NCBI GenBank assembly: GCA_000231825.2 | Contig: JH720351.1 | Location: 1 to 64,000 of the forward strand | Direction of reading: 5' to 3' | Length of the DNA stretch: 64,000 bases | Source: Tetrahymena elliotti 4EA | Lineage: Eukaryota; Ciliophora; Oligohymenophorea; Hymenostomatida; Tetrahymenidae | The notes under the pieces: model-generated | Database searches by the model: none | Seen by the model: only the letters and a program-made list of their open reading frames with translations | What the model was told of the DNA's origin: nothing | Shown here: positions 19,379 through 45,298 of the stretch, in pieces | Layout: every line of letters starts with the position of its first letter | How positions within the stretch are numbered: position 1 is the stretch's first letter | Made by a program: the position numbers and the translations under genes

Positions 19379-22099
19379 TGTCATAAGTTAAAATAACTCA
19401 ATCTAAAAAATAGAAACATATGTGCAGACGTTTTAGTCAATTCATCAAAAAAGAAAAAAAATCTATAAATCAATCATATAAAATTTAAAAATAAAATCTA
19501 TTATTAAATATCTAAAAAATAAAAAAAAATATGCAAATATTCATTCTAGCCTCTCATCTAAAAAGATGAGTAAGCCAACAGAATTTTGTATGAAAGTATA
19601 TATTAAATTTAAAAATAAAATGAATTTTTAAAATCAATTTACATTTTTTCTTGTCTTTTTCTCATTAAAGAAAGACAAATAATATTCATAATTTATTTTT
19701 CGTCTGAAATAAAAATATCAAAATTTATTTAATTCCCTAAAATTTATAAATAAAAATTTAGATATTTGAGTTAAGCTTTCTTGTATTATCTTTTAGTAAA
19801 AGCATAAAAGATTAGATTATTATAAGAAATAGTTATACACAAATTAAATTATATGTCAGAGATTTTAATTTAACTTCATAGTATGAAAGAAAATAAAAAA
19901 TTTAACCTTTTTTTTCTTAAATGTAAGAAACATAGTACAATTTAAATTGATAACAAAATAAATCTAAATTTATTTTAAGTTTCTTCCGTTTACTCTTCTT
20001 TTAGAGATTTTAGTCTAAATTAAATATGTGTTTTAATTAATTTATTGATTTGGTGTTTTTTTATCTAGGCTTTAGCTTATCTATTTAGAATTGTTTGTAA
20101 TTAAAATTAAATAAAATTTCTTTTTAGATTTATGAATTTAAGAATTTTTAAATAAGTTGAACTCTTCCAGTTTAAGTATGCTCAATACTTCAAAGTTAAA
20201 CAGATAAATATCTCATTTGATTGACACCTGATCAAAATATCTAATTTTGTTAAAAAATCTAGAAATTTAATAAAAGTTCTACTAAATTGAATATTTTACC
20301 TATACTATAAATTAAATAGATAATCTAAACTCTTACATAAAAACTAAACAAAATAAAAAAAAATTTATTTTGTTTATTACAGTTATCTATCTTATTAGTA
20401 TAAATAAAATTATTTCTAGTTTAGCTATCAAATTTAGACAAACTTACCTAGAATAAAATTTCATAAGTAAGTAATAATGTTAAGAGTTTCACAAGTTTAA
20501 TTAATTAATAATTTATTTTGGTGATGAATTTTCTTTTTCTTAATTAATTAAATCTAAATGTTATTTATGTAGTATTATTTATTCTGATACTTTTTGATTG
20601 TCTTTAATTTATTTACAAATGCAAAATAAATTATTTTTAAAAAGCTAAAGTCAATTTCATTAAAATTTCAATTTAGTTGAAATAATATTTTTGTGAAATT
20701 CATTGAACCTAAACAATTATTGCTTAATGAATAACAGCATATCTGAATTTATAAAAATACTAATCAAAGAATTTAATATTAATATTTTTACTGAATAAAA
20801 TTATAAAATAATGATTGCATTTTGAAATTAGTTGATGATTTTCATTTTAACTTACCTAAAAATATAAATATTTTTGTTTCGATTTTATTTTAATATTTTT
20901 TTACTAGTTTTGAAAATAAATTTTTAATTTATTTAAATGATAATCTAAATTAGGTGTTTTTACTGTTTAATAAAAAATAATTCTTGATAAAATAATAATT
21001 AAAAAATATATTAATAAAATTACTGATATGAAACAGCATTATAGATAAGATTATTTGTTTACATGTTTAAAAGAAAAGAAAAAGACCATAAAATTAGTCT
21101 TTATGAGAATAAATATTAGCTAATAAATTCAAGTTATTATAAACATATTTATAAGTTATAATTGATAAGCTAATACACCTAAGATGATAACTAAAAATAA
21201 TATTTGTATTTTTTTAAGCCTTTAAATCAAATAGAACCCATTTAACTTAATTATTATGCATATGCATATCCCCTTCTTTTAATTAAAAAAATAGATATTA
21301 ACTATTAAAAACAAATTTTTTTTAAAAAAGCTTACCAAAAAAAGACAACAACTCTATCTTTATTTTTTAAAGAGCTGTAAGAGTCAATAGATAAGAATAA
21401 AAAGAAACTAACAAAATCAATAGTAGATTTGCCAAAATAAGATAATATTTGAAGGAAATTAAGCAAATATAATTATTTAAATCACATAAAGCTAGCTATC
21501 TAAAGTGAAGATAAATCATATAACCATTTTATCTCAGGCTTAAAGGTAAAAATAAAATCAATTAGCTTATTTTTGTTCATCATTTTTAGCAATCACAGAA
21601 TGAATTTAATTTCCAGTATCAATATGAAATAACAAGAAACAACATATTTCTTATAATTAAACCAAATTCGCATAGCGAAAAATCCATTCAATTTCAAATG
21701 ATCTTAAAGCATCCAATAATATAAAATCTTATTTGAATATTATGATGATAATTTTTAAAAATATGATAACATGTTAAGAGTTATGCATATTTATATTAAC
21801 ATTCATATTAATCATTAAATTTACCTTTTATTTAATCGTTAGGGAATAGTGTATCAAAAAGGAAGCCTTTAAGAGGAAATAAAAAAAGAATCAAATAAAA
21901 AGCAGAAACATTTTTAAATAGGGAAGGAAGAAAATAGATTCTGTTGAATCTTTTCTATAAATATTATTGAAACCATCTTACAGTTTTATAGCTATTGGTT
22001 CTTGAATCAGTAAAATCAAGCTGATTAAATAGATTAAGATAATTTAGCAATACTTACAAAAGCAGTAAAAATAGGAAAAGAAATACTCATTCATTTTAA
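19379..22099. other. Long intergenic spacer
   Basis: About 2.7 kb of AT-rich DNA between the pseudogene and the NIMA-related kinase. I see no sustained frame on either strand, no RNA gene and no repeat array. The last few hundred bases should be the kinase promoter. Confidence 0.55.
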
Positions 22100-25000
22100 A
22101 TGAATACAAATAATCGATAGTAAAGATCTGAATCAGATAGAGAAAAAGCTCGCTTGATGAATGGTGTAGATATCAATATAGAGAAATAGGAGCATGAAGA
22201 TAATAAGCGCTAAATTGGATCATGTGTTTCTGATTTTACTATAGTAAAAGAACTAGGTAGAGGTTCATATGGTGTGGTATATAGAGCGATATCAAATATC
22301 AATAAAAAAGAATATGTAGTAAAAAAAATAAATATCAAGCATATGAGCAATAAGCATTAAAAGGAGGCTTTAAAAGAGGCATAAATTCTACGTAAAGTCA
22401 GGCATGAAAACATTATTAGATACTACACTTCTTTTGTAGAGCATGATTGCCTATATATTGTCATGGAATATGCTGATGGCGGCGATCTTTAACAAGTTAA
22501 TATACAAATACTATTTAAATTTTTCATATACTTTTAAGCAATTTAATATATTAGTTCAGTAATAGAGAAGAAATGCAAATAAACAAGCATTCAAATTATC
22601 CATGATTTAAGATAAATTTTAATCATAAAATACTGAAAAAAATATATTTTCAAGTCATAAAAAGTTACAGCAAACAAACATTTAAATGGATAATATTTTG
22701 CATTGGAAATTTTAATAAATTATTTCTATTTTTTACTGAAATTACTTTAAAAGTCAACAATTTTTTTGTAAAATAGCTCCTCAGATATCGCAGGGAGAAA
22801 AAAAAATAGTTTACAGAAACAGAAATATGGGAATACGCTCAGGATTTGATCAAAGCTGTTGATTACTTGCATAAAAATAACATTATCCATAGAGATATCA
22901 AAACTTTGAATATTTTTCTCACAAAAGATAGAAAAGTCAAGGTAACAATTTTGGCAAACAATATAAATTATTTAATATTTACTTACTAAAGAGCCTCTCT
23001 ATTTGCTATAAAAACTTGTGGATTTAGTTGGTATTTGAATTTGAGATTAGTCTATCTTTATAAACTCAAAAAGGATTTTTATATAGATTTTTTTATCTAT
23101 TTTTATGAATTAATTAAAAAAATATTTATCATTTTTAATTTTAAAACTCAATTAATTCTATTTAAATAGCTTGGTGATTTGGGTGTTTCAAAAATTGTAT
23201 CAAGCTAAGCAGCACTGTAAGGTACTAGAGTAGGTACTCCTTTATATCTTGCACCTGAGCTGGTCAAATAACAACCATATGACTTTAAAGTAAATTAAAT
23301 TTTTAATTGTTTAATGAAATAAATATTTTTATATTGGTTAGGTTGACATATGGGCAATTGGCATTGTTTTATATCACATCAGTGGTAATTACTTTTTTTA
23401 CATTTTAAAGATATTCTTTAAAAATATTTACTAATTTAGCTTTAGAACCACCATTTTAAGGAGAAAATTTGATAGCACTCGGATTTAATATCGTTCATAA
23501 ATTTCCTAAACCTTTACCCAGTGTTTATTCTCCTAAGCTTGTTGGATTTATAAATAAGTTATTGGAAAAAAATCCACTTTAGCGCCCTAAGACATCAGAA
23601 CTACTAGAGACTTTTCCAAAAAAAAGTGAAAGACCAATGACTGGGCAACCTTAATCTTCTAATTCATGGCAAAATAATGCAGCAAGAAATTCTTCTAGCA
23701 GTTCAAATATAAATGATAAGATAGAAGTTTATGATAAGGGTAATTACAATATGCTTAATAGGATCATTGAGGAAGATTAAGAAATGGCAGCTGCATTTCA
23801 CAACAAGCTTGATAATAAAAAAAAATCTTTAGAATTGAATGAATATGAAAACAAAATGGTAGGCTAACCTTCAGTTTTACCTTATCACATGAGAAGACCT
23901 TAAACAAGTGTTGGTAGAGATAAGGAAAAGTTATTGTATTAGTAAAAAATGTAAGAAAATATTAACAATGAATATAATAATTTAAACTTAAAAGCTTATA
24001 AAAATAATTCAAATTAAATTGATTACCAATAAGATCTAAAAAATTAATTTGATGAAGATTCATCAGATCTTAGAAACAGCAAATAAACTAAATAAAGAGA
24101 TAGAAGTGATTCATCTTCTTCATCATCTAATTATAATAATAATAATAATAATAGAGAGGTGTTAGTGATGGGAAATAATGCTGCTTTGACCTCGAGCAAT
24201 AATAATGTAGGAAGATATTTAAGTAAAAATAAAGAGATTATGACTTATAATAAAAAAAAAATGTCTTTGATCACAGATAGTAGTATTCTAAATGATGATA
24301 AAAAGAAGAGTGGAAGTACTCGTTAATCAACCACTGCTCAGCAAGGAATTAATTATAATCAAGTAACAAATGATGATAAAAAACTAAATTAAAATGAAGA
24401 CAAAAAGTCTAAGCCAGAATAATAAACTTAATAGTAATAATCTTATCTACCTACTCACAAAGTTAATTCATAAAGCTAACAAATATAAAATTCTAATTAA
24501 ATTTCTAATTAGCATTCACCCTCAGAAAATCATCTAAATTCACATCGAATATTAACTTCAGCTACAGAGAAAAAGTTAGAAAAAAATTAAAGCAGCAGTA
24601 ATAATAATAACAACAACAATAATGTTTCAAGTAGTGATTTTAGCTCTAACTAAAAAGCTAATTAATATCATGTTTAAGGAAAATAATTAAATAAGAATAA
24701 AAATGAGGAATAAGATTAAGAGTAAAAAAAGAAAAATTAGAGCTTATTAGAAGATGGTATGATGATCTAAGAAAAAGTAAAATAGAGCAAAGAAAACACT
24801 CCAGGTAATGTTTAAAATAATAAAGATACTAAAGCTACTCTTGAATAAAAGTAAAAAGAAGCTACAAATCAATTGTAGAAATTGATTTCCTAATAGAGTA
24901 ATTTAAAAGACACAAAAGAAACTAAAGAAATCAAAGAATATCTTAAGGATATTAATAGTAATAATAACATTAATAATAATGGTTCAAATAAAAATAATGA

Positions 25001-26207
25001 AATCAAAGGATAAAACCCATTAGTTGCCTATTTTAATATTAGTAAATCAATGAGTGATAACTTATAAAGCAATTTTAAAATACGCCCTTTCTCAGCATAA
25101 ACAAAGCCCAGATAAAATGAATTAGGAAAAAAGCCAGAAGTAAATAATTTTATTAAAAATGAAATGATGTCAAGCTAAAATAAAGATGCTATGAAACTGG
25201 AATAAATAATAAAAGAATTTAAATAAGAAGCTCAAAAAATTAGAGAAGCACCTCTTAACATTTATGCGAATGGTCAAAGCTAGCCTTTATCTACTCCTAA
25301 AGATCATAAAAGCACAACTGAAAGTAAAAAGAATGATAAAAATATAAATACTGGATTGTAATAGAGTGCTTCAACATAGTCTAACAAAAAAGAACCCTCA
25401 AATAAAACTGCAAATCAAAATGAGAAAATAGAAAATAAAAGGAAAGAAGATAGCAATTTAGGAAATGAAAATGCTGCAATTAGACCTTAATCAGCCCATC
25501 CTTTAGTAGGAAACAGATAGAATAAAGTCTTTAATTAATTTAATAATAGATATGTTTCTCCAAACTAGTATATAGCTGGATTCAGTAGTCCTTTCTAAAA
25601 TAATCCAAATACTAACACATCTCATAAATCGATTGTAAATAACTTTATTAAAAACAGCATAGGCAAAATGAGTAACAACGTCATTATCGATCCTGTAAGC
25701 AAGCCTCATAAAGGTAAGTTCATCTTTTAAATTCAAAATTTAACTTATTTTTATAATAAAATAGATTAAAATTAAAACTAAGAAAATGATAAAAACTATT
25801 TCTTTTATAGAATTGATAATGTTTAAAGAGATTTTAATGATGAAAGTAAAATTTTTTTATTTCAAATTAATTTTCACAAAACCAACTATATTTATTTTTT
25901 AACAGTTAATCCCTAGTCTACTAAATCTAGCTCATAGAAAATGGATATAACTTCTAAAATGAAATCAGCCACTTCTACTAATTTTTATAAAGATTAATCT
26001 TAACTAACTGTGAGTGTGAAGGGTGGAAACTCCTAAAACCTTGATAACCCTCCTACATAAAATAAAGAAAAGACAAACTAAGGGAAAGTTTTAGTCTTAA
26101 ATAATGCCCGTCCTTAAACTTCAACTGGCATTAGAAAAAAATATACAATAAAAGATTTAGTGTCTGATTAACATGTTTATCGCACTAACTAAGTTGTAAG
26201 CTAATGA
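22100..26207 (+). CDS. NIMA-related Ser/Thr protein kinase (NEK family)
   Basis: A predicted 1126-residue kinase in seven exons. Introns are 22496-22776, 22942-23169, 23290-23341, 23385-23439, 25714-25764 and 25846-25905; all phases agree and the total length is divisible by three. The kinase domain spans about residues 46-290: glycine loop GRGSYGVVY (53-61), ATP-anchoring Lys75 (EYVVKK), HRDIKTLN (170-177), DLG (190-192, the NEK variant of DFG) and LAPEL (214-218). Ordering and motifs are those of active NEKs, which in ciliates act on cilia length, basal bodies and cell cortex. The 830-residue C-terminal tail is low-complexity, rich in N, K, S and Q, with an Asn run near 24130-24155. It converges tail-to-tail with the second NEK gene at 27249-30473. 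Confidence 0.92.
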
Positions 26208-27248: not shown

Positions 27249-30200
27249 TCAAAAATTATCATCAGAAATGTCCATTAAATTTTCTTCATTCTGATCATCA
27301 CTACTAAACTCTTAATTTATTTTATTTTTTTAATTTTTGTTTGATGATTCTTACCCATTATAGTAATTATCATCTAAAGCATCTTCTTCATCATCAGTTC
27401 CATTTTTAAATTTATTTAATTCTGTATTTAATTACTTGGAAAGCAGATTACTTTTTAGAACTCCAATTTTAATTGTCATGGATTTTATTTCATTCTTTTT
27501 TTAATTTAGTAAAAAAGACAATTCATTAAAATAATTATAGTTAATAAATAAATTTTTTACTCTTATTTTTAATATGGCATCTTTTATTTTATTTGTTTGG
27601 TCATTTCCTGTCACTAATTTTTCTCTTTCAACAATCTCTTTTTTGACTTTTTCTAATTGATCATTAAGGGTATCGAAGTTTTAAATTTAACCCTTAACTA
27701 ACTCAGATTTTGATTCTAAATCTTCTAAAAATTTTTTTTTACTTTAAACTTTCTCTTTAAGTAAGCTGATGCTATCTATATTTCCTTAATTAATTCTTTC
27801 TTCTCCTTTTTGTATTGAATCGAGTTGATTTTACCAGTTAGTTATTATCTTATTTACAAAAGGTTCTTACAAAATTTATGCCTACATATTCATACCCTAT
27901 TATAAAAAATAATTTAATAAATAAGTTTGATTTAAATTTACTTAGATACTCTTTAATATTTTTAAAGTCTATTCAAGTTTTTTATATAATCATTGTCATT
28001 AATTTATGTTGTTATTTCATTTTTTTTTATTTTTATATCAAAATTTTATAGCTCTGTTGTGACTCTTAAGCATTCTTTTTACCATTCTAATGGATCAACA
28101 TTTGAAATAATAATTTCTCTATTTTCATCGATTACATTTTTATAATCAGCTTCTTCTCCATTTAACCTTTTATTATATTATCCATTTAATAAATCTCCTT
28201 ATTCATCTTCTCCTATAATAGATTCCCCTTCTTCTATTTCCTCCTCATCTATCATATACTCATTTAAATCAGGATCTTATAACACTCCGTTTTCTGTCTC
28301 TTGCCCATTCTAAATATCACTGTGTTTAGGATCTTCAAATTTAAAATTCAATCTAATCAATTCTCTATTTAATATATCATTTAAGATAAAGCAGACAGTA
28401 TCTCCATATCCCTATTTTTGTTTAAATTATCAATTTTTAAAATTTCATAGAAATAAATTATTAAAGATTTGTCTGTTTTTATGAGTTTAATTTTCTCTTT
28501 TTTTCAATATTGAAAATATAAAATTCTGAATTGAAGATTAAAGGTAAAATTTATTGTTACATTTCTTATATGTTGAATATTTAAAGAATCAGGTAGCCTG
28601 AGTCCCCATTTTTTAAGATCGAATAATAACTATGAAGCACATTCATCTACAGAATCCCAATTTCCAAGAGATTTTAATTTTAAAGCTGCTTATATTTTAT
28701 TTTTTTTATCATACTAATAAAAAAATAAACATTAACACAATTAAATTTTAATTAAATAATAAACTATTTTTATAAGGAATTTACTTTTTATATTGACATA
28801 ATCCAATAGCAAAGTTCAGCAAAGTAGAAAAATTTTTAATTATTTTATGCTGGTGTTCCATCTGAAATCGAAAAAAACACTTTTGATACGGGATCTCTAT
28901 GCATAGGTTTACAAAAAAAATTATGATACTCTAAAAGTGTTAGTTTTTCATATATATCTTCATTGACCTGTTTTATATTTTAACCAATTAAATGACTTTC
29001 TTTATTTGTTAAATATCCATTACTAAAATGCAATCAATCTTAGGATTTTTCTTTAACTAATTAATTTTTTATTCACATCTTTATAAAACAATATCAGTCC
29101 CAATTCTCTTAGCTGGGTCAACCACTATCATTTCATCTATAATTAACTATAAATCTTCACTATATCTCTTACTTATTTATTTATATTCTCCTAATATATT
29201 TTAACATTATTTAGATCTCATTTGCTTAAAAAAATTTATTTTACCTTTTGTAATATTCTAAAATAAATCCATTAAACTCATTTTATCATTTTCATTTCTA
29301 AATGGACTCTTAAATTCACATAACTCATAAACTATACATCCCAAACTCCATACATCGCTCTTCATATCGTAACCTTCACCATGTAAAAGCTATAATTTAC
29401 AAATAATATTAATTAATTTATGAAAAACCTAAAATTAGATCTAAACAAGTCTCAAACAAACATTTTAATTAGAATAGATAAAATTGTCTTGAAAGATTAA
29501 AAGTTTCATAATTTTCAATATTATTCATACAAGAAGCAATTACTCTTTTTCATGTTAAACTATCTTTTTAGCTGCTTTTTAAACTGCTTGATTGATGTTT
29601 ATTTATTTTTTATCTAAGTTTTAGAGATTTCATATTAAGTAGACATAACAATAACAAAGAAAAGATATTTCATATTATATTAAAATACCTCTGGACTCAT
29701 GTATAAGGGAGTACCTACTTTAGAATAAACTTCAATAGTTCCTGAAGAAAATTCTCTTCCTAAACCTAAATCTCCTACTTTTAAAGTATCGTCTTAAGCA
29801 ATAAAGATATTTGCAGGCTTTAGATCTCTATGCATAATTCTTTTTTCATGCATGTGATTGAGAGCTGAGGCAATCTATTACATGTATTCCCATATTTTTA
29901 ACTCCTCAAAAGGAGTCTCTTCCTATTGCTGCATTTTAATAAGTCTCTTTAAATCTCCTTTTTCAGCCCATTCTGTAACAATAATCAATTCATTATTATG
30001 TATAAATGAGTCTATATATTTAATTATATTAGGGTGATCTAATGGTTTCATCAAACCTACTTCTTTTAAACATTTCTCTCTCTATTTAGGATCCATCATA
30101 TCAAATATCTAAATTAAAAAATGATAAATTCGTTATTTAAAAACATTTTTCTATCTAGATTCTAATAATAATTTGTAAGCTATGGTAAAAATAATCTAAT

Positions 30201-30473
30201 AATTCAACTTAAAAAATCCAATTTAAATGAAAAAATGATTTAAATTCAAAACCAAAAGAAATTGCCCAAAAGAAATTTTCTATTTAAGTAGCTTCGATAG
30301 ATAGATATATCATATTAAACCATAAAGCTAAATTTGTTTACCTTTATCTTTTTTAATGCAAAAATCTATTTATTAGCAGTTTCAGCTTTATAAACTGTTG
30401 AAAATTTGCCCTAACCTGTTTTTTTATATATAGAAAATGCTTGAGTTTAAACATATTTTGAATTTAATTCCAT
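27249..30473 (-). CDS. NEK6/7-type protein kinase fused in frame to intraflagellar transport protein IFT57
   Basis: A predicted 769-residue protein in eight exons. Introns are 30109-30341, 29390-29688, 29191-29244, 28968-29023, 28714-28784, 28412-28560 and 27897-27949; every phase agrees. Residues 1-288 are a NEK6/7-like kinase: GQGKFSTVY (20-28), Lys41 (ALKK), HRDLKPAN (137-144), DLGLG (157-161) and a normal MSPE segment. Motifs such as KIFDMMD and [11 protein letters not shown] match NEK6/7. From residue 289 the sequence follows IFT57: the N-terminal calponin-like region, then [12 protein letters not shown] (about 398-409), then DPLEWQKE, then a long coiled coil with GEERINQ. IFT57 is a subunit of the IFT-B complex that carries cargo along ciliary microtubules. 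No TGA separates the two parts; intron 28968-29023 joins them in phase 0. An upstream ATG at 30657 could add an exon. The alternative is two genes with a kinase end I cannot see. Confidence 0.8.
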
Positions 30474-31416
30474 TTTTTGCCCTAATTATTTCACTAATTA
30501 AAATTTCTTTTAATATTTCTCATATCTTATTGGCAATTTGAGTAAAACAAAATCCAATTTCAAAAAATTCTATATCTACTATTTGTTTACCTATTGGTTT
30601 TGATACAGTATATCCTTAAATTTCCTTTCCAGTAAATTCCTAAATGTCCTTACTCATTTATAAATCTTTTTAATATTTAGCTGGTTATCCTATTAATATT
30701 TTAAACTATATTTTTGAGAGTAGATCTGATTGAAATATTTGTTTGCTTGTTTACACAAAATTCTAAAATTTAGATAAAAAATTTAAAGATAGATAGTTAA
30801 TCAATTTGATTTTTATTGTTTTGAATTTTTTAAATTATTAATACTATCCAGCCAAATACTATTCGATCCTATTAGTTAATTAACTAAGAAAAGATTCTTC
30901 TAAGTTATAAAATTAAATATATTAGTTAAAATTTATATCGAGCACTATTATTAAACTCATGAAAATCAAATTCTTCAATAAGTATTTGATACTAAATATG
31001 TTATTTAAATTTTTAAAACTTGTCTAAATAAATTATGTTTTTTTAAATATATTTTTCAACTTATTATTTACTAGAAAATCTTTTAATTTACTTTATATTT
31101 TTTGATGATTAATTTTTATTTTATTCAAATACATAATATAACTATTATCTCTTTTTTAAGTATTAAATTAGAGTTATATATAGATAGAAAATACAATAAA
31201 TATTTATGAAATTTTTAAATTTATTTTTTAAAAATATTTGGATAAGACATATTTAGTTCAAATCAGCAATTCTTTTTAGAGAAATGAATGGAAATAAATT
31301 AATTTAGAAAGCTTTAAAAACATTAATATAAATTTCTTTGAAAATTAGACTACTTGTTAAAATAATTAAAGTCTTAATTTTACTTAAATTTTATTATATC
31401 AGAAAAATAATTTAGG
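30474..31416. other. Spacer with possible upstream exon of the NEK-IFT57 gene
   Basis: About 940 bases upstream of the NEK-IFT57 start. An ATG at 30657 opens MSKDIQEFTGKEIQGYTVSKPI, which stops at TGA unless spliced. A GTAAAC donor after it can join it in frame to the kinase exon, so it may be a 5' exon. The remainder is AT-rich noncoding DNA. Confidence 0.45.
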
Positions 31417-39443: not shown

Positions 39444-41336
39444 TCAAATCCTTAGCATCTCTTCTCTTTTTTATTAATCAGTTTTACACTTTTCTTTTAC
39501 AGTTACTTCGTAATAATCAAAACTATCTTTGTCATATGCAATTAGCTCACTTTAAAATTTTTGAACGTACTCCAAAAAATCAGCCTTTTTTTATGAAAGA
39601 AAAAAATATTATGAATTTTAACAAAAATATGTATTACCTCTTATGGCTAATCTGGATTGAATAATGAATACCCTTTTTCTTAGCCATCTTGTATTATTTT
39701 AATATTAAATTTAGATTATTCTTGAGCTTTTTGATGTAAACACTCCACCATTTATATTATTTCTTTGCATGAATATCTATACAAAATTATTGAAAGTAAA
39801 TAACAACTATTAGAATTAAAATTACCTTTTTGCTAAAGAACCAATATTTTTTATTTGACCATCTTTAAGTGATGTAATATTTAGTATTTTCAACTACTAT
39901 TTTATTAAGTAAAACTTTTGTTTTTTATTTGGCCACTTTACTTTGACATTCTTCTTGAAAAAATTTTATAACTTTTAACTTAATTTCCATGGACAAGAAG
40001 AAGAAGCAAATATAAATACTCCTTTTTATTATTGAATTTCTTGTAATGAAGATAAAATATATTATGAATATTATTGTGATTGGATTATCTGATCCTAATC
40101 CTAATCAGGAACTTAGTGTTTAAATCCAAATACATCATCTATATCTTCTATAAAAACTAGGACTTTCTTAAACTTTTAAACTTCTCTAAATACTTTCTTA
40201 GGTGATCTTTTTTATTTAAAATTAACATTTTTAAAAGTTATTTCTACATGAAATCTAAATTAGAATTCAAATAATAAAAATTTGTTGATATTTATATTAT
40301 TCAATTAATCATTGGATAAAACAACTTCTTTAAAACGAAATATGTGTAGATAAATTCAAATAAATTTTTACATGAATTCTTCTCCATTTCTTTTGTTCAG
40401 CATTAAGCTTGCTTTTATATATATAACTTTTATTTCTTTAAACTCATTAGCTAGGCATTTTATAATTGAAGCTTTTCCACAATTTTAGGGCTATTAAAAT
40501 ATATTCTTATAAGAATTTCATAAAACTAAATAAGAATCAAATTACTCCATAAATCAATAAAGTATTTGGTGGTTATAATTTTTTGAAGAAATTTGGAAGT
40601 CTTAATGGCATCATGAGCATTTAATAGATAATTTTCTTTTATTCATCAACACCAATCAAATCATCCCATTTCAAGTTAAATCCCTCTAAATACATCTCAT
40701 CCTTTTAATCATCACTTTTTTATTTTTTGAAATTATTAGTTAACAAAAACTAATAAAATGAATTTTACTTCAAACTAGAAATAGATGTTTGTGTATTTAA
40801 TGTGATGGCTTCTTCTGCTTCATAAATTGTTTGTTGATTATTTTGTTTTTTGTAATCCAGGGGTATCTTGGGTACTGTTTGCTTTATTTATTTTTTTGGA
40901 ATACTTAATTTACTTATAAATGAAGATTGAGCTGAATCTTGATAAGAACTGCTTTAAATTGTTAAGAAACCAGAAGCAAAATCAGGATCTTCACTAGTAA
41001 CAGATTAATCTTTAGCTCTAAAGTAGGGCTAATCTGATACAGATATAGTAGATTTATTATCTATAATAGTGAAGATTGTATTTTAATCATAATCTTAAAT
41101 ACTTGATAAATCTTCATTATCAAGTTATTTATTTATTTTTACATCCATTGCTCCTTTGATATCTATTTAAATTAGTTTTTTAGGTATTGAATATTTAATT
41201 TGATACTGGCTTTTTCTTATTCTAATATTACTCAATAACTTATGGCTTTAATTAATCTAAATTAAAAAGCAAATTATTTTTACTTGCTGTTACTCCCTAT
41301 CTCCTTAAATACTTTGTTATAAATATTCTTTTACAT
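39444..41336 (-). CDS. Degenerate AAA-type ATPase, katanin/spastin/Vps4 relative
   Basis: A 504-residue protein in six coding exons. Introns are 41257-41312, 40491-40545, 40207-40371, 39777-39825 and 39585-39637; all phases agree. The first 210 residues are low-complexity. The AAA module starts at WDDLIGVDEQKKII, the motif that opens the meiotic-clade AAA domain, followed by PLRLPNFFKKLQPP and LLIYG. The Walker A is GPQNCGKAS (245-253): the Thr/Ser after Gly-Lys is Ala. The Walker B is VLVFIEDIDD (300-309), with the acidic pair as Glu-Asp instead of Asp-Glu. The segment after CPWKLSQKLQ reads NFF where arginine fingers (RRF) are expected. Together these suggest little or no ATPase activity, perhaps a partner of an active AAA subunit. 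An intron splits the P-loop between YG and PQN. The first 8-residue exon is the least certain. Confidence 0.8.
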
Positions 41337-42460
41337 ATGACAGTTATTATTTCAGTTCAAAAAAAAGTAGAATATTACATGATACATGTATTTATTTTTG
41401 ATTGTGGTAAGATCATAAAATATAAAATAAATTAGCATACAAACATAAATTAGTTAAAAAAGTAGATAACTTGGCAACTGAAAATATAATAATGAATACT
41501 TTGGATTAGTTTTAGATAAAATATTTGGAATCTCAAACACTTTAATTTTTTTTAACTTAAAGAGTTGTTTTTTAGGATTAAAATAAATGCAGGATTAATT
41601 TATTTATGAAAATTATTATGTGATGCAATCATCCTCTTCTATTTATAGGCAAATAAAAGAAATTAAAAAAGGAATACTTTGGATTAATTATGTATGTAAA
41701 AATATCAGATTTTTTTTTAATTTAAGAATTTTTCATCAATTTAAAGATCAAAATTAAATCATATTTATCTCTTTAGCAGAAGCTTTGATAAGACATATTT
41801 ATTAATATATGAAAGTGAGTCTATTTCTCATTAAAAAACATATTAAAAAAAAAGGGAATACTTTGGTTTAATTAATTCTTTAGAAATATTAGGTCTTTTT
41901 ATTTAAAAAAAATTTAGATTTTTAAGAATTTAATATGTTTAAACTAATATTTTGAGGAATAAAATTTTGTATTGGAAAGATAGAGCATTGATTTTGATCT
42001 CAATGATAATTCGATTTTAGCATAGAAAATTAGTTGAAAAGTTAGACAAAGATTATAGATTTTTTTATAAAAAAATCTGAGCTAATCAATAGAATAATTA
42101 TTGATTTAGAAAACTTAAATTTAAAAGAAAGAAATAAAGAAAAATATTAAAAAAATAGTGTAAATGATAATCTGCTGATGGATAATTTTCACTTATTTTT
42201 TGATAATCAATTATTTGGTGTTGTTTATGTATAAATATTATTTATATTTATTGTTATTATCTTTTCTAAACTATTTATATTACAGAGAATCAATAAAAAA
42301 ACTTATCAAAAAATTTATTAATTAATTTAATAGGAATTAAGTTCATTGCTTTTGATAGAAGATTAGATTAAAATAGATAGATATATATAGATAACTATAG
42401 TACCAAGCAAAAAAATACATCACATTTTGTAGATTAAAAAATAATTTTAGCTATATTACT
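41337..42460. other. Divergent promoter region with spaced repeats
   Basis: About 1.1 kb between the divergently transcribed AAA gene (-) and CaMKK-like kinase (+). It contains three copies of a GAATACTTTGGATTA-type motif about 180 bases apart (listed separately). Otherwise AT-rich, no gene seen. Confidence 0.6.
41494..41870 (+). repeat. Three spaced copies of GAATACTTTGGATTA
   Basis: The 15-mer GAATACTTTGGATTA occurs exactly at 41494-41508 and 41672-41686. One mismatch (GAATACTTTGGTTTA) occurs at 41856-41870. Spacing is 178 and 184 bases, close to a nucleosome repeat. The sequence between copies is only weakly alike, so this is either a very degenerate tandem repeat or three conserved binding sites. 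Confidence 0.6.
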
Positions 42461-45298
42461 ATGAATTTAAATGAAATGAGTACTCAACCTTCGTAATAAG
42501 GAATTTCAAATGTTAAGAAAAAAAAGGTTGAAGATGATGTGATTGATGAACCTCTTAATTCAAATTCTGAAGAATCAGAGGAATCTTTTGATTAAAATAA
42601 TGATTATGTTATCGAATATGATGATAAATCATTTTAAGGTCAAGGATTTATAAAAAACAATATTAGGAATATGTAAGGATTAGGAAATAATAAAATAATT
42701 TTTAATAGTTTATAGGATGAACACCATTCAAATATAAAGCCAGGTATTTAGTAAATAAACTATGGATAGATAGCATAGGGTAACAAAATGAGAAATTATA
42801 GTATTGGAGGATTGCCAAAAGGATCTCAAAATAAGTATAATACATAACAGCTTCCTCATAAAATAAACCCTTAATTAAGTATATATCAAAACCAAATAAG
42901 AGCATCTCCTTTGGACATTTTAGGGGGAAGTGCTGATAGAAAGTAAAGAAAATTTTCAGAGAATATAATGCAATTAGATGATAATCTTTATGACCAGTAA
43001 TTCAGTTAATACAAAAACTAATTTATAGAGTGTGGGTATAACTAATAAAGATAAAGATTTTAAGTGAAAGAAACTAGTGAAATCAAAGAAGGAAGAGATA
43101 CAATAGGGAAAAAAACAATAAATGAGTATAGGTTTATCAAAAAATTAGGTCAAGGAAATTTTGCAAAAGTAAAGCTAGCTATTTCATCAACCACATAAAA
43201 GCATTATGCCATAAAAATATTTTATAGATCATAATTAGTGAAAAATACTTATACAGTTGTTAATAATGAAGGGAAGTAAGTTATAAAGAATGCTCTTTAG
43301 AACTTGTTTAGAGAAATTTCCATTATGAAGCTTATTTGGCATCCTAATGCAATCAAACTTTATGAAGTAATCTAAAATAGAAATTATGATAAGATTTATT
43401 TAGTTATGGAGTATGCTTCTTAAGGATAGCTTATGGACTGGGATTCTAAAACAAATACATTCACAAGAAATGATTACCTTTTTCCTACAGGATTAGTATC
43501 TCCTTTATCTGAATTTAATATAACAAATTAATAATAATAAAACTAGTTAAAGTATGGATAAAGTTCTATTTGTAGCTTACCGCATCAATAGGGTTATTCT
43601 TCTTATTATAAAAAGGCTTCTTTAGATATTTAAAGTAATAATGATGATGAAGAATTTATTGATGAAGAATTAATTAGAATGATATTTAGATAATGCGTTA
43701 AAGGCTTATCTTATCTCCACTCAAATAATATAATACATAGAGATATTAAACCCTAAAATATTCTAATTTCTAAGTGTGGTATGGTAAAACTTGGTGATTT
43801 TGGTATATCTACTATAGTAGGAGATGAAGAAGAAAATCTCTAAAATTAAGATGGGACCTATCATTTTTAGCCACCTGAGTTTTTTGCAAAAGAAGTTAAA
43901 ACTTAAAATAATACAAATTTGTCTTTTCTTCCTGGTACATTTAGCCATCAAAGAAAGAATAAACATTTAAAAGATTAAGCATAACAAATTGCCTATAGGA
44001 TAGAAAGAATTTGTAGGCTCAAATAAGCAGACGTGTGGGCCTTAGGAGTCACACTCTTTGCTTTAGTATATAAAAAGTTGCCATTTTTTCATAATAATAC
44101 ATAATAATTATTCCACCTAATTGAAAAGGGAAATCTCATTTTCCCAAATAAACCAAAAATATCTCCAGGACTTTAAAATTTAATTCAAGGAATGCTTGAA
44201 AAAGATTTTGAGAAGCGCCTTACGCTCGAGGATATTTAAAAGAATTTTTGGATTAACCAAAATGAATAAGATCTATAAGCAGAAATAAAAGAAAGTTAAC
44301 GTAGACGATAACTTAATTAATTTTAAGACTAAAGCTCATAAAAATAATTACAATAACAAACTTCTAGTTTTGCTTCAATCAGCACATAAAATACTAATAC
44401 TTAATTATTTAGTAATAAAATTAAACTCACTTTAAGAAAAATTAAAGTTATTTGCTTGTGCAAAATTTTTTTTGTGCATTTTAGATACTTGCATAAAATA
44501 AGCTCTCCAATCATACCAGGAAATATTAAAAATATATCTCCACAGAAAATAAAATTAGATAAATTGATTATTTAAACAACTAGAAATGAAGAGAACTCTT
44601 CTAAGATTTTTAGCAACACAAATCATCCTACAGTCCTTTTAAATTAAAAAAATGAAAATGAAAAAAATGATAAAATAAAAAAACAAGATGGACAACTGTA
44701 AAAAAGTGAAGCAAAAAGAAATAGCTAAAATCAAATATTGCTTTAAATTGCAGATTAAGATGGTTCTCCAGGATAAAATTAACAAAATTTGTATAACTTT
44801 AGAAAAAAAGACTAATCATAATTCTTGCAAATTTTGAAAAATGAAGTTTCCTATAAATAAGCTTAAGAATTTATTTTGAAAGATGATGAAAGAGTATCTT
44901 CAAACGATGCAAATAGTAATGGTTAATCTTAGAAATTGATACAGCTTCATTCTAAAGCTAGCTTAAATGATGAGTCATTTCTTGAAGAAAGTGATGTAAT
45001 AAATACCTTACCATCATTTAACAATAAGCAAGTTAAACTTATTACGTAAATCGATTTTGAAAACTCGCTTGAAAATAATATTTAATCACCCATTTCTATT
45101 AAGCTTTACCCTAAATCAGAATTAGTGAACAACTAAAAAAAAATGTAATTAAATCCTAATATTCATCCCTTTTCTGAAGAAAATTTACAAATTTCTATGG
45201 ATAATGATACTCCAGTAAATAACTCCTCATTAGAAGGAGAAGAAAAGATAAAGGTACCACACTTCAGCACATCAACTTTAATTTAAAAGTTTGATTGA
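42461..45298 (+). CDS. CaMKK/LKB1-like Ser/Thr protein kinase
   Basis: A single-exon gene of 945 residues. Residues 1-220 are low-complexity and acidic. The kinase domain runs from about 222 (YRFIKKLGQGNFAKVKLA) to about 602: HYAIKIF supplies the ATP Lys, HRDIKPQN lies near 425, GDFGIST near 445, and a substrate-site motif GTYHFQPPEFF replaces the usual APE. The pattern of a basic segment after the catalytic Lys (IFYRSQLVKN) and an insert before the alpha-D region resembles CaMKK and other upstream kinases that activate AMPK/SnRK1, although two long N/Q-rich insertions (about residues 345-405 and 475-515) are unusual. The 340-residue tail is low-complexity. Activation-loop and tail Ser/Thr are many. 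It is divergently arranged with the AAA gene. Confidence 0.85.

Follow-up and report, generated by a model that had tools for sequence, protein, structure and literature searches.

We report a predicted gene of Tetrahymena elliotti in which a NEK6/7-type kinase is joined in frame to a paralogue of the intraflagellar transport protein IFT57. It is encoded on the minus strand of the window, by which we mean the whole stretch of 64,000 nucleotides that was analysed (part of contig C59; the assembly has 134 contigs and 90 Mb). As corrected here, the gene model has 10 exons and 9 introns and specifies a protein of 750 residues and 87.5 kDa. The same kinase plus IFT57 architecture was assigned by Pfam to predicted proteins from three other ciliates, Ichthyophthirius multifiliis (P0001), Pseudocohnilembus persalinus (P0002) and Paramecium pentaurelia (P0003). 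At the level of gene prediction, the fusion is real and conserved, and we consider it almost certain that a single conserved NEK6/7-IFT57 fusion gene is present.

Structure of the fusion gene

The window was translated with the ciliate code, in which TAA and TAG are read as Q while TGA is the stop codon. An original prediction for this locus, made from the DNA alone, had described eight exons spanning 27249-30473. Its placement of both halves on one strand was correct, the strand being the minus strand, and its eight exons do sum arithmetically to a multiple of three, giving an open frame of 765 residues. In this model Pfam already recognizes a Pkinase domain (4.6e-65), and the IFT57 profile is matched over its full length (positions 1-360, 1.6e-82). 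The gene start had to be revised: position 30473 is intronic, and the homologues place the N terminus in an upstream exon (exon 1 in Table 1), which splices to 30415 in the corrected model. The first exon of the eight-exon model, corresponding to its first 19 residues, was rejected on the basis of the homologue alignment. A 54-base intron had also been overlooked. It contains no in-frame TGA and had been read as coding within the third of the eight exons, in the kinase C lobe, and we assign it as an intron because its 18 residues are missing from all three homologues. With both changes the number of exons rises to 10 and the feature extends to 30657.

In the corrected protein, Pfam assigns Pkinase to residues 16-272 and IFT57 (PF10498) to residues 293-686, the latter covering profile positions 1-360 with 277.9 bits at a cut-off of 40. 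The two parts are connected by a linker of about 20 residues. The label CH-like for exons 6 to 8 is taken from the IFT57 literature, the domain search performed here being that with the Pfam IFT57 profile.

Table 1 Predicted NEK6/7-IFT57 fusion gene and its parts (positions in the window)
Feature	Position	Strand	Basis
Whole NEK6/7-IFT57 fusion gene, coding part	27249..30657	-	table 6; TGA stop 27249-27251; frame without internal stop; homologues; Pfam
Exon 1, MSKDIQEFTGKEIQGYTVSKPIG	30591..30657	-	N termini of P0001 and P0003 match; N terminus of P0002 unaligned
Exon 2, kinase glycine loop to ALKKIK	30342..30415	-	homologue alignment and spliced model
Exon 3, kinase core including activation loop	29689..30108	-	spliced model
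Exon 4, kinase C lobe	29245..29389	-	spliced model
54-base in-frame intron, GT-AG, GC 0.15	29191..29244	-	its 18 residues missing in 3 of 3 homologues
Exon 5, kinase end and linker	29024..29190	-	spliced model
56-base intron at the kinase/IFT57 boundary, GT-AG, phase 0, not a multiple of three	28968..29023	-	joined peptide aligns gap-free to P0001 and P0002
Exon 6, start of IFT57 part (VNEDIYEKL...), N-terminal CH-like domain	28785..28967	-	Pfam IFT57 from residue 293
Exon 7, CH-like domain	28561..28713	-	spliced model
Exon 8, end of CH-like domain, acidic middle, DPLEWQKE	27950..28411	-	spliced model
Exon 9, coiled coil	27561..27896	-	spliced model
Exon 10, end of coiled coil, acidic tail, TGA	27249..27494	-	spliced model

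One gene or two

The two halves are separated solely by a 56-base GT-AG stretch (29023-28968), across which the splice is in phase 0 and the frame stays open with no TGA between the halves. On all of these points the original prediction was right. It may nevertheless be asked whether two adjacent genes, one for a kinase and one for an IFT57 paralogue, are transcribed separately and have been wrongly joined. The join is predicted from sequence, and wrongly merged models of adjacent genes are reported for T. thermophila (PMC3143110). However, the IFT57 half lacks a start codon of its own, as a TGA at 29036-29034 closes its frame upstream and the stretch from there to the acceptor at 28967 contains no ATG. 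Translation from the next methionine, which is in exon 6, would drop about 20 residues of a conserved region. Nor does the kinase have a stop codon before IFT57: when read unspliced, its frame is open to 28712 and the first TGA (28711-28709) lies within the IFT57 coding sequence. Were the 56-base intron retained, only a kinase product would be made.

The same order and the same join also recur in the predicted proteins of the three other genera. The spliced 19-residue junction peptide aligns gap-free with the Ichthyophthirius and Pseudocohnilembus proteins, and around the join 17 of 23 residues (Ichthyophthirius), 20 of 23 (Pseudocohnilembus) and 12 of 23 (Paramecium) are identical to the window protein. 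The Paramecium join is the least similar and has three extra residues nearby, with the domain order unchanged. With neither start nor stop at the join, and with its conservation in three genera, the mis-joining of two genes was rejected as extremely unlikely.

Fusion homologues in other ciliates

The three homologues are database gene predictions, which in the alignment are 62% (P0001), 50% (P0002) and 48% (P0003) identical to the eight-exon model. P0001 carries the database name "never in mitosis gene A-related kinase, putative", and the names of the three proteins, as far as displayed, give a kinase or nothing and not IFT57. In P0002 the kinase glycine loop is missing and the first residues (about 1-35) are unaligned, which probably reflects a wrong 5′ gene model.

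When the IFT57 part of the eight-exon model was used as query, 7998 candidate proteins were scored and three were found, all of them fusions; this search admitted only proteins of about 421-1339 residues and so excluded shorter stand-alone IFT57s. A second search without that length bias (7992 scored) found four proteins, two fused and two stand-alone, and a further one (365 scored) found two, both fused; P0003 was missed in both. As the protein searches are limited by shared words and length, little can be concluded when other taxa, among them T. thermophila and other ciliate classes, are absent from their results. A T. thermophila fusion protein was not found in these word- and length-limited database searches, although the species is very close, while the stand-alone IFT57 of T. 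thermophila did appear in one of them. This absence would be accounted for by a gene model that is split, merged or missing, or else by loss of the gene. Gene loss is less likely because published trees include Tetrahymena Nek6/7: in one NEK phylogeny, sequences from Tetrahymena fall within the Nek6/7 clade (PMC2031824, in which the word IFT does not occur).

With gapped columns omitted, identity to the window protein is 67-84% for the kinase, 53-70% for the IFT57 N-terminal domain and 26-38% for the coiled coil. That the kinase and the IFT57 N-terminal domain are best conserved is as expected if selection acts on the kinase and its docking domain. Pseudocohnilembus is an oligohymenophorean scuticociliate, and we take Tetrahymena, Ichthyophthirius and Paramecium to belong to the same class. 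The fusion probably predates the split between Tetrahymena and Paramecium.

The kinase half

With NEK7 the kinase scored 263 bits, compared with 174 for NEK1 and 148 for NEK2. Its kinase domain is 49% identical to NEK7 over 254 residues, and the DLG motif is common to both. The fused kinase and NEK7 form a clade with 100/100 support in a tree of 10 rows, in which NEK7 and NEK1 were the only named references. In humans, NEK6 and NEK7 are short, with about 300 residues and hardly anything besides the kinase domain. The fusion protein is unlike them in that its 750 residues include, at the C terminus, a whole IFT57 paralogue. Judged by these comparisons, its kinase domain is of the NEK6/7 type and stands in a new architecture.

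The HRD (140-142) and DLG (160-162) motifs and the activation-loop serine S176, which is presumably the activating site of NEK6/7, are invariant in all four aligned sequences. The glycine loop and the ALKK lysine are intact in the window protein and could be compared in three of the four sequences, the start of P0002 being unaligned. The fused kinase is apparently active. It could instead be an inactive kinase that serves as a structural or scaffold domain, and NEK7 does act as a scaffold independently of its kinase activity in another setting (PMC13401987); however, with glycine loop, ALKK lysine, HRD and DLG all intact in the window protein, and with a kinase domain so similar across the three other genera, we regard a loss of activity as very unlikely.

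Other NEK-type genes

A genome search for NEK-like sequences resulted in 136 matches (134 of 699 candidates scored), three of which are exons of the fusion gene. The best four of the other 133 matches were compared with the PDB. Three were nearest to NEK1 and one was a near tie (NEK7 216 bits, NEK1 211 bits), which in the tree pairs with a NEK1-like match. This suggests that the fusion may be the only NEK6/7-type kinase of this genome.

One further gene of the window, at 22025-26204 on the plus strand and thus tail to tail with the fusion gene, is presumably of the NEK family by its motifs. Its translations contain DFTIVKELGRGSYGVVYRA..., HRDIKTLNIFL and GDLGVSK, followed by a long Q/N-rich tail; ORF 23283-26204, when submitted alone, had no match in Pfam. 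Elsewhere in the window, an open frame of 980 aa (42356-45295, plus strand) has a protein kinase domain (Pfam 1.2e-55), and 39447-40355 (minus strand) possibly codes for a piece of an AAA ATPase (Pfam 2.1e-4, barely over the family cut-off). Of the ten window ORFs submitted to Pfam, the eight besides these two were not assigned to a family.

The IFT57 half and the ordinary IFT57 subunit

The original prediction had proposed a search of this genome for a separate IFT57 gene, and such a gene was found. Two loci match the Pfam IFT57 profile, namely the fusion, in three pieces (78, 58 and 54 bits), and a gene on contig C111 (130 bits). Among 14 control genomes a weak match was seen in three and none exceeded the cut-off. 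The C111 gene (about 23787-25704; G000:C111, L005) is identical to the T. thermophila protein P0004 in 372 of 387 residues. P0004 has 404 residues and 46.7 kDa, and IFT57 of T. thermophila is TTHERM_01298520, with a table figure of 47, apparently in kDa (PMC8175508); because the sizes agree, P0004 is likely to be this protein.

Between the fused IFT57 half and ordinary Tetrahymena IFT57, identity is about 27%. In a tree of eight rows the four fused halves form a clade of their own (100/100), apart from the stand-alone IFT57 proteins of this genome and T. thermophila, a metagenome protein and a PDB chain; the branches are long, which makes the root unsure. A profile built from the four fused halves and the C111 protein matched the PDB IFT57 at 7.9e-52. 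The fused half has the full-length Pfam profile in common with IFT57 from T. thermophila (P0004) and with PDB 8bd7 chain M, which we take to be Chlamydomonas IFT57, and differs from them in being fused to a kinase. By sequence, the fused half is a second, diverged IFT57 paralogue and the C111 gene is the orthologue of the ordinary subunit. That the fusion might be the only IFT57 of this organism was rejected in view of the second gene.

The original prediction can thus be upheld in one part. A NEK6/7-type kinase and IFT57 do appear as one gene, given the same architecture in the predicted proteins of three other ciliates and the grouping of the kinase with NEK7. What had to be given up is the view that a kinase has here been attached to the ordinary IFT57 subunit, since the ordinary IFT57 is the separate C111 gene, from which the fused half is far diverged. 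A complete IFT57 gene elsewhere, together with an unexpressed fusion locus, had been named as speaking against the prediction; as to the first half of this, the other IFT57 gene exists on C111.

For the C111 gene itself, a first model (415 aa, with a 25-base intron) was rejected on comparison with T. thermophila. Alignment A2, the second protein search, the PDB profile search and the IFT57 tree used this first, unamended model. The first exon was not located at the locus upon comparison with P0004. Open stretches that look like coding sequence are found upstream of the gene.

Proposed role of the fused kinase

We infer the docking, substrates and effect of the fusion kinase as follows. The IFT57-derived part, a CH domain followed by a coiled coil, would dock the NEK6/7 kinase into the IFT-B2 sub-complex, with the fusion either replacing ordinary IFT57 in a minority of complexes or binding IFT172 at the basal-body pool. 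In other organisms the CH domain of IFT57 binds IFT172 (PMC6224603), and IFT57 contacts several dynein-2 subunits (PMC10110421). The kinase is proposed to be positioned beside IFT172 because it immediately precedes the CH domain. From there it might phosphorylate neighbouring subunits of IFT-B2, kinesin-2, dynein-2 or substrates in the axoneme, and this phosphorylation might tune train entry, turnaround or the disassembly of the cilium. The idea of the original prediction that the fused kinase would place phosphorylation on the moving IFT train is plausible. The Tetrahymena kinase LF4A, which reduces IFT frequency and speed, is mostly stationary along the cilium (PMC6682161). In contrast, the fusion suggests another route, with a kinase that is borne by the IFT complex itself. 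The predicted structure of the fusion protein (pLDDT 54, pTM 0.30) was too poor for use.

As the IFT57 half is far diverged, binding of IFT172 or IFT20 may have been lost. The main rival to an action on IFT trains is that the fusion is real but works away from them, with the IFT57 part retained in order to dimerise the kinase or to target it to basal bodies, the spindle or the macronucleus. Such a role would be compatible with the strong divergence of the IFT57 half in the presence of an ordinary subunit, and with the weak conservation of the coiled coil. We take the two IFT57 gene pairs of Paramecium to be stand-alone IFT57 genes. That one of these pairs gives rise to a macronuclear protein (PMC8535419) also favours a role off the trains. 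However, the N-terminal domain, which is the published IFT172-binding part, is the best conserved region within the IFT57 half, and we hold an off-train role to be unlikely. We lean slightly towards an action of the fusion on IFT complexes through its IFT57 part. The explanation as a whole, consisting of one fusion gene, a kinase docked on IFT-B2 by the IFT57 part, and an effect on IFT, is considered reasonably probable.

Significance

The NEK6/7-IFT57 domain fusion is apparently undescribed, although the proteins themselves are already in public databases. In agreement with the original prediction, no description of a NEK-IFT57 fusion was found among the matches listed in the literature searched (with subscription papers and supplements outside its scope), and none is mentioned in the accessible parts of PMC8041816, PMC12106347, PMC11149776 and PMC3341644. 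A survey of fusion genes in T. thermophila includes RSK4, a NIMA-related kinase joined to a radial spoke protein (PMC3143110), and the main text of this survey contains neither IFT nor intraflagellar. RSK4 is likewise a combination of a NEK with a ciliary structural protein in a ciliate, but the partner differs, being a radial spoke protein rather than IFT57.

Research on cilium length control has yet to explain how kinases get to IFT trains and act on them. With its kinase covalently linked to a paralogue of an IFT-B subunit, and with this link kept in genera as distant as Tetrahymena and Paramecium, the fusion would offer a tethered-kinase experiment made by nature, in two ciliates that lend themselves to genetics. 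The NEK6/7 branch, whose members have mainly been studied for their roles in mitosis and the inflammasome, would also be linked to IFT, and the fusion indicates a second kind of IFT57 in ciliates that has been overlooked.

As a tentative and rather doubtful generalisation, ciliates of this class might have their sole NEK6/7-type kinase permanently built onto a paralogue of an IFT-B2 subunit, so that some IFT-B complexes carry a kinase of their own. If this is true, what NEK6/7 does in this lineage would belong to IFT, and IFT57 would have given rise to two copies, one structural and the other regulatory and carrying the kinase. The fusion itself suggests that the transport machinery of the cilium may in part carry its own regulatory enzyme.
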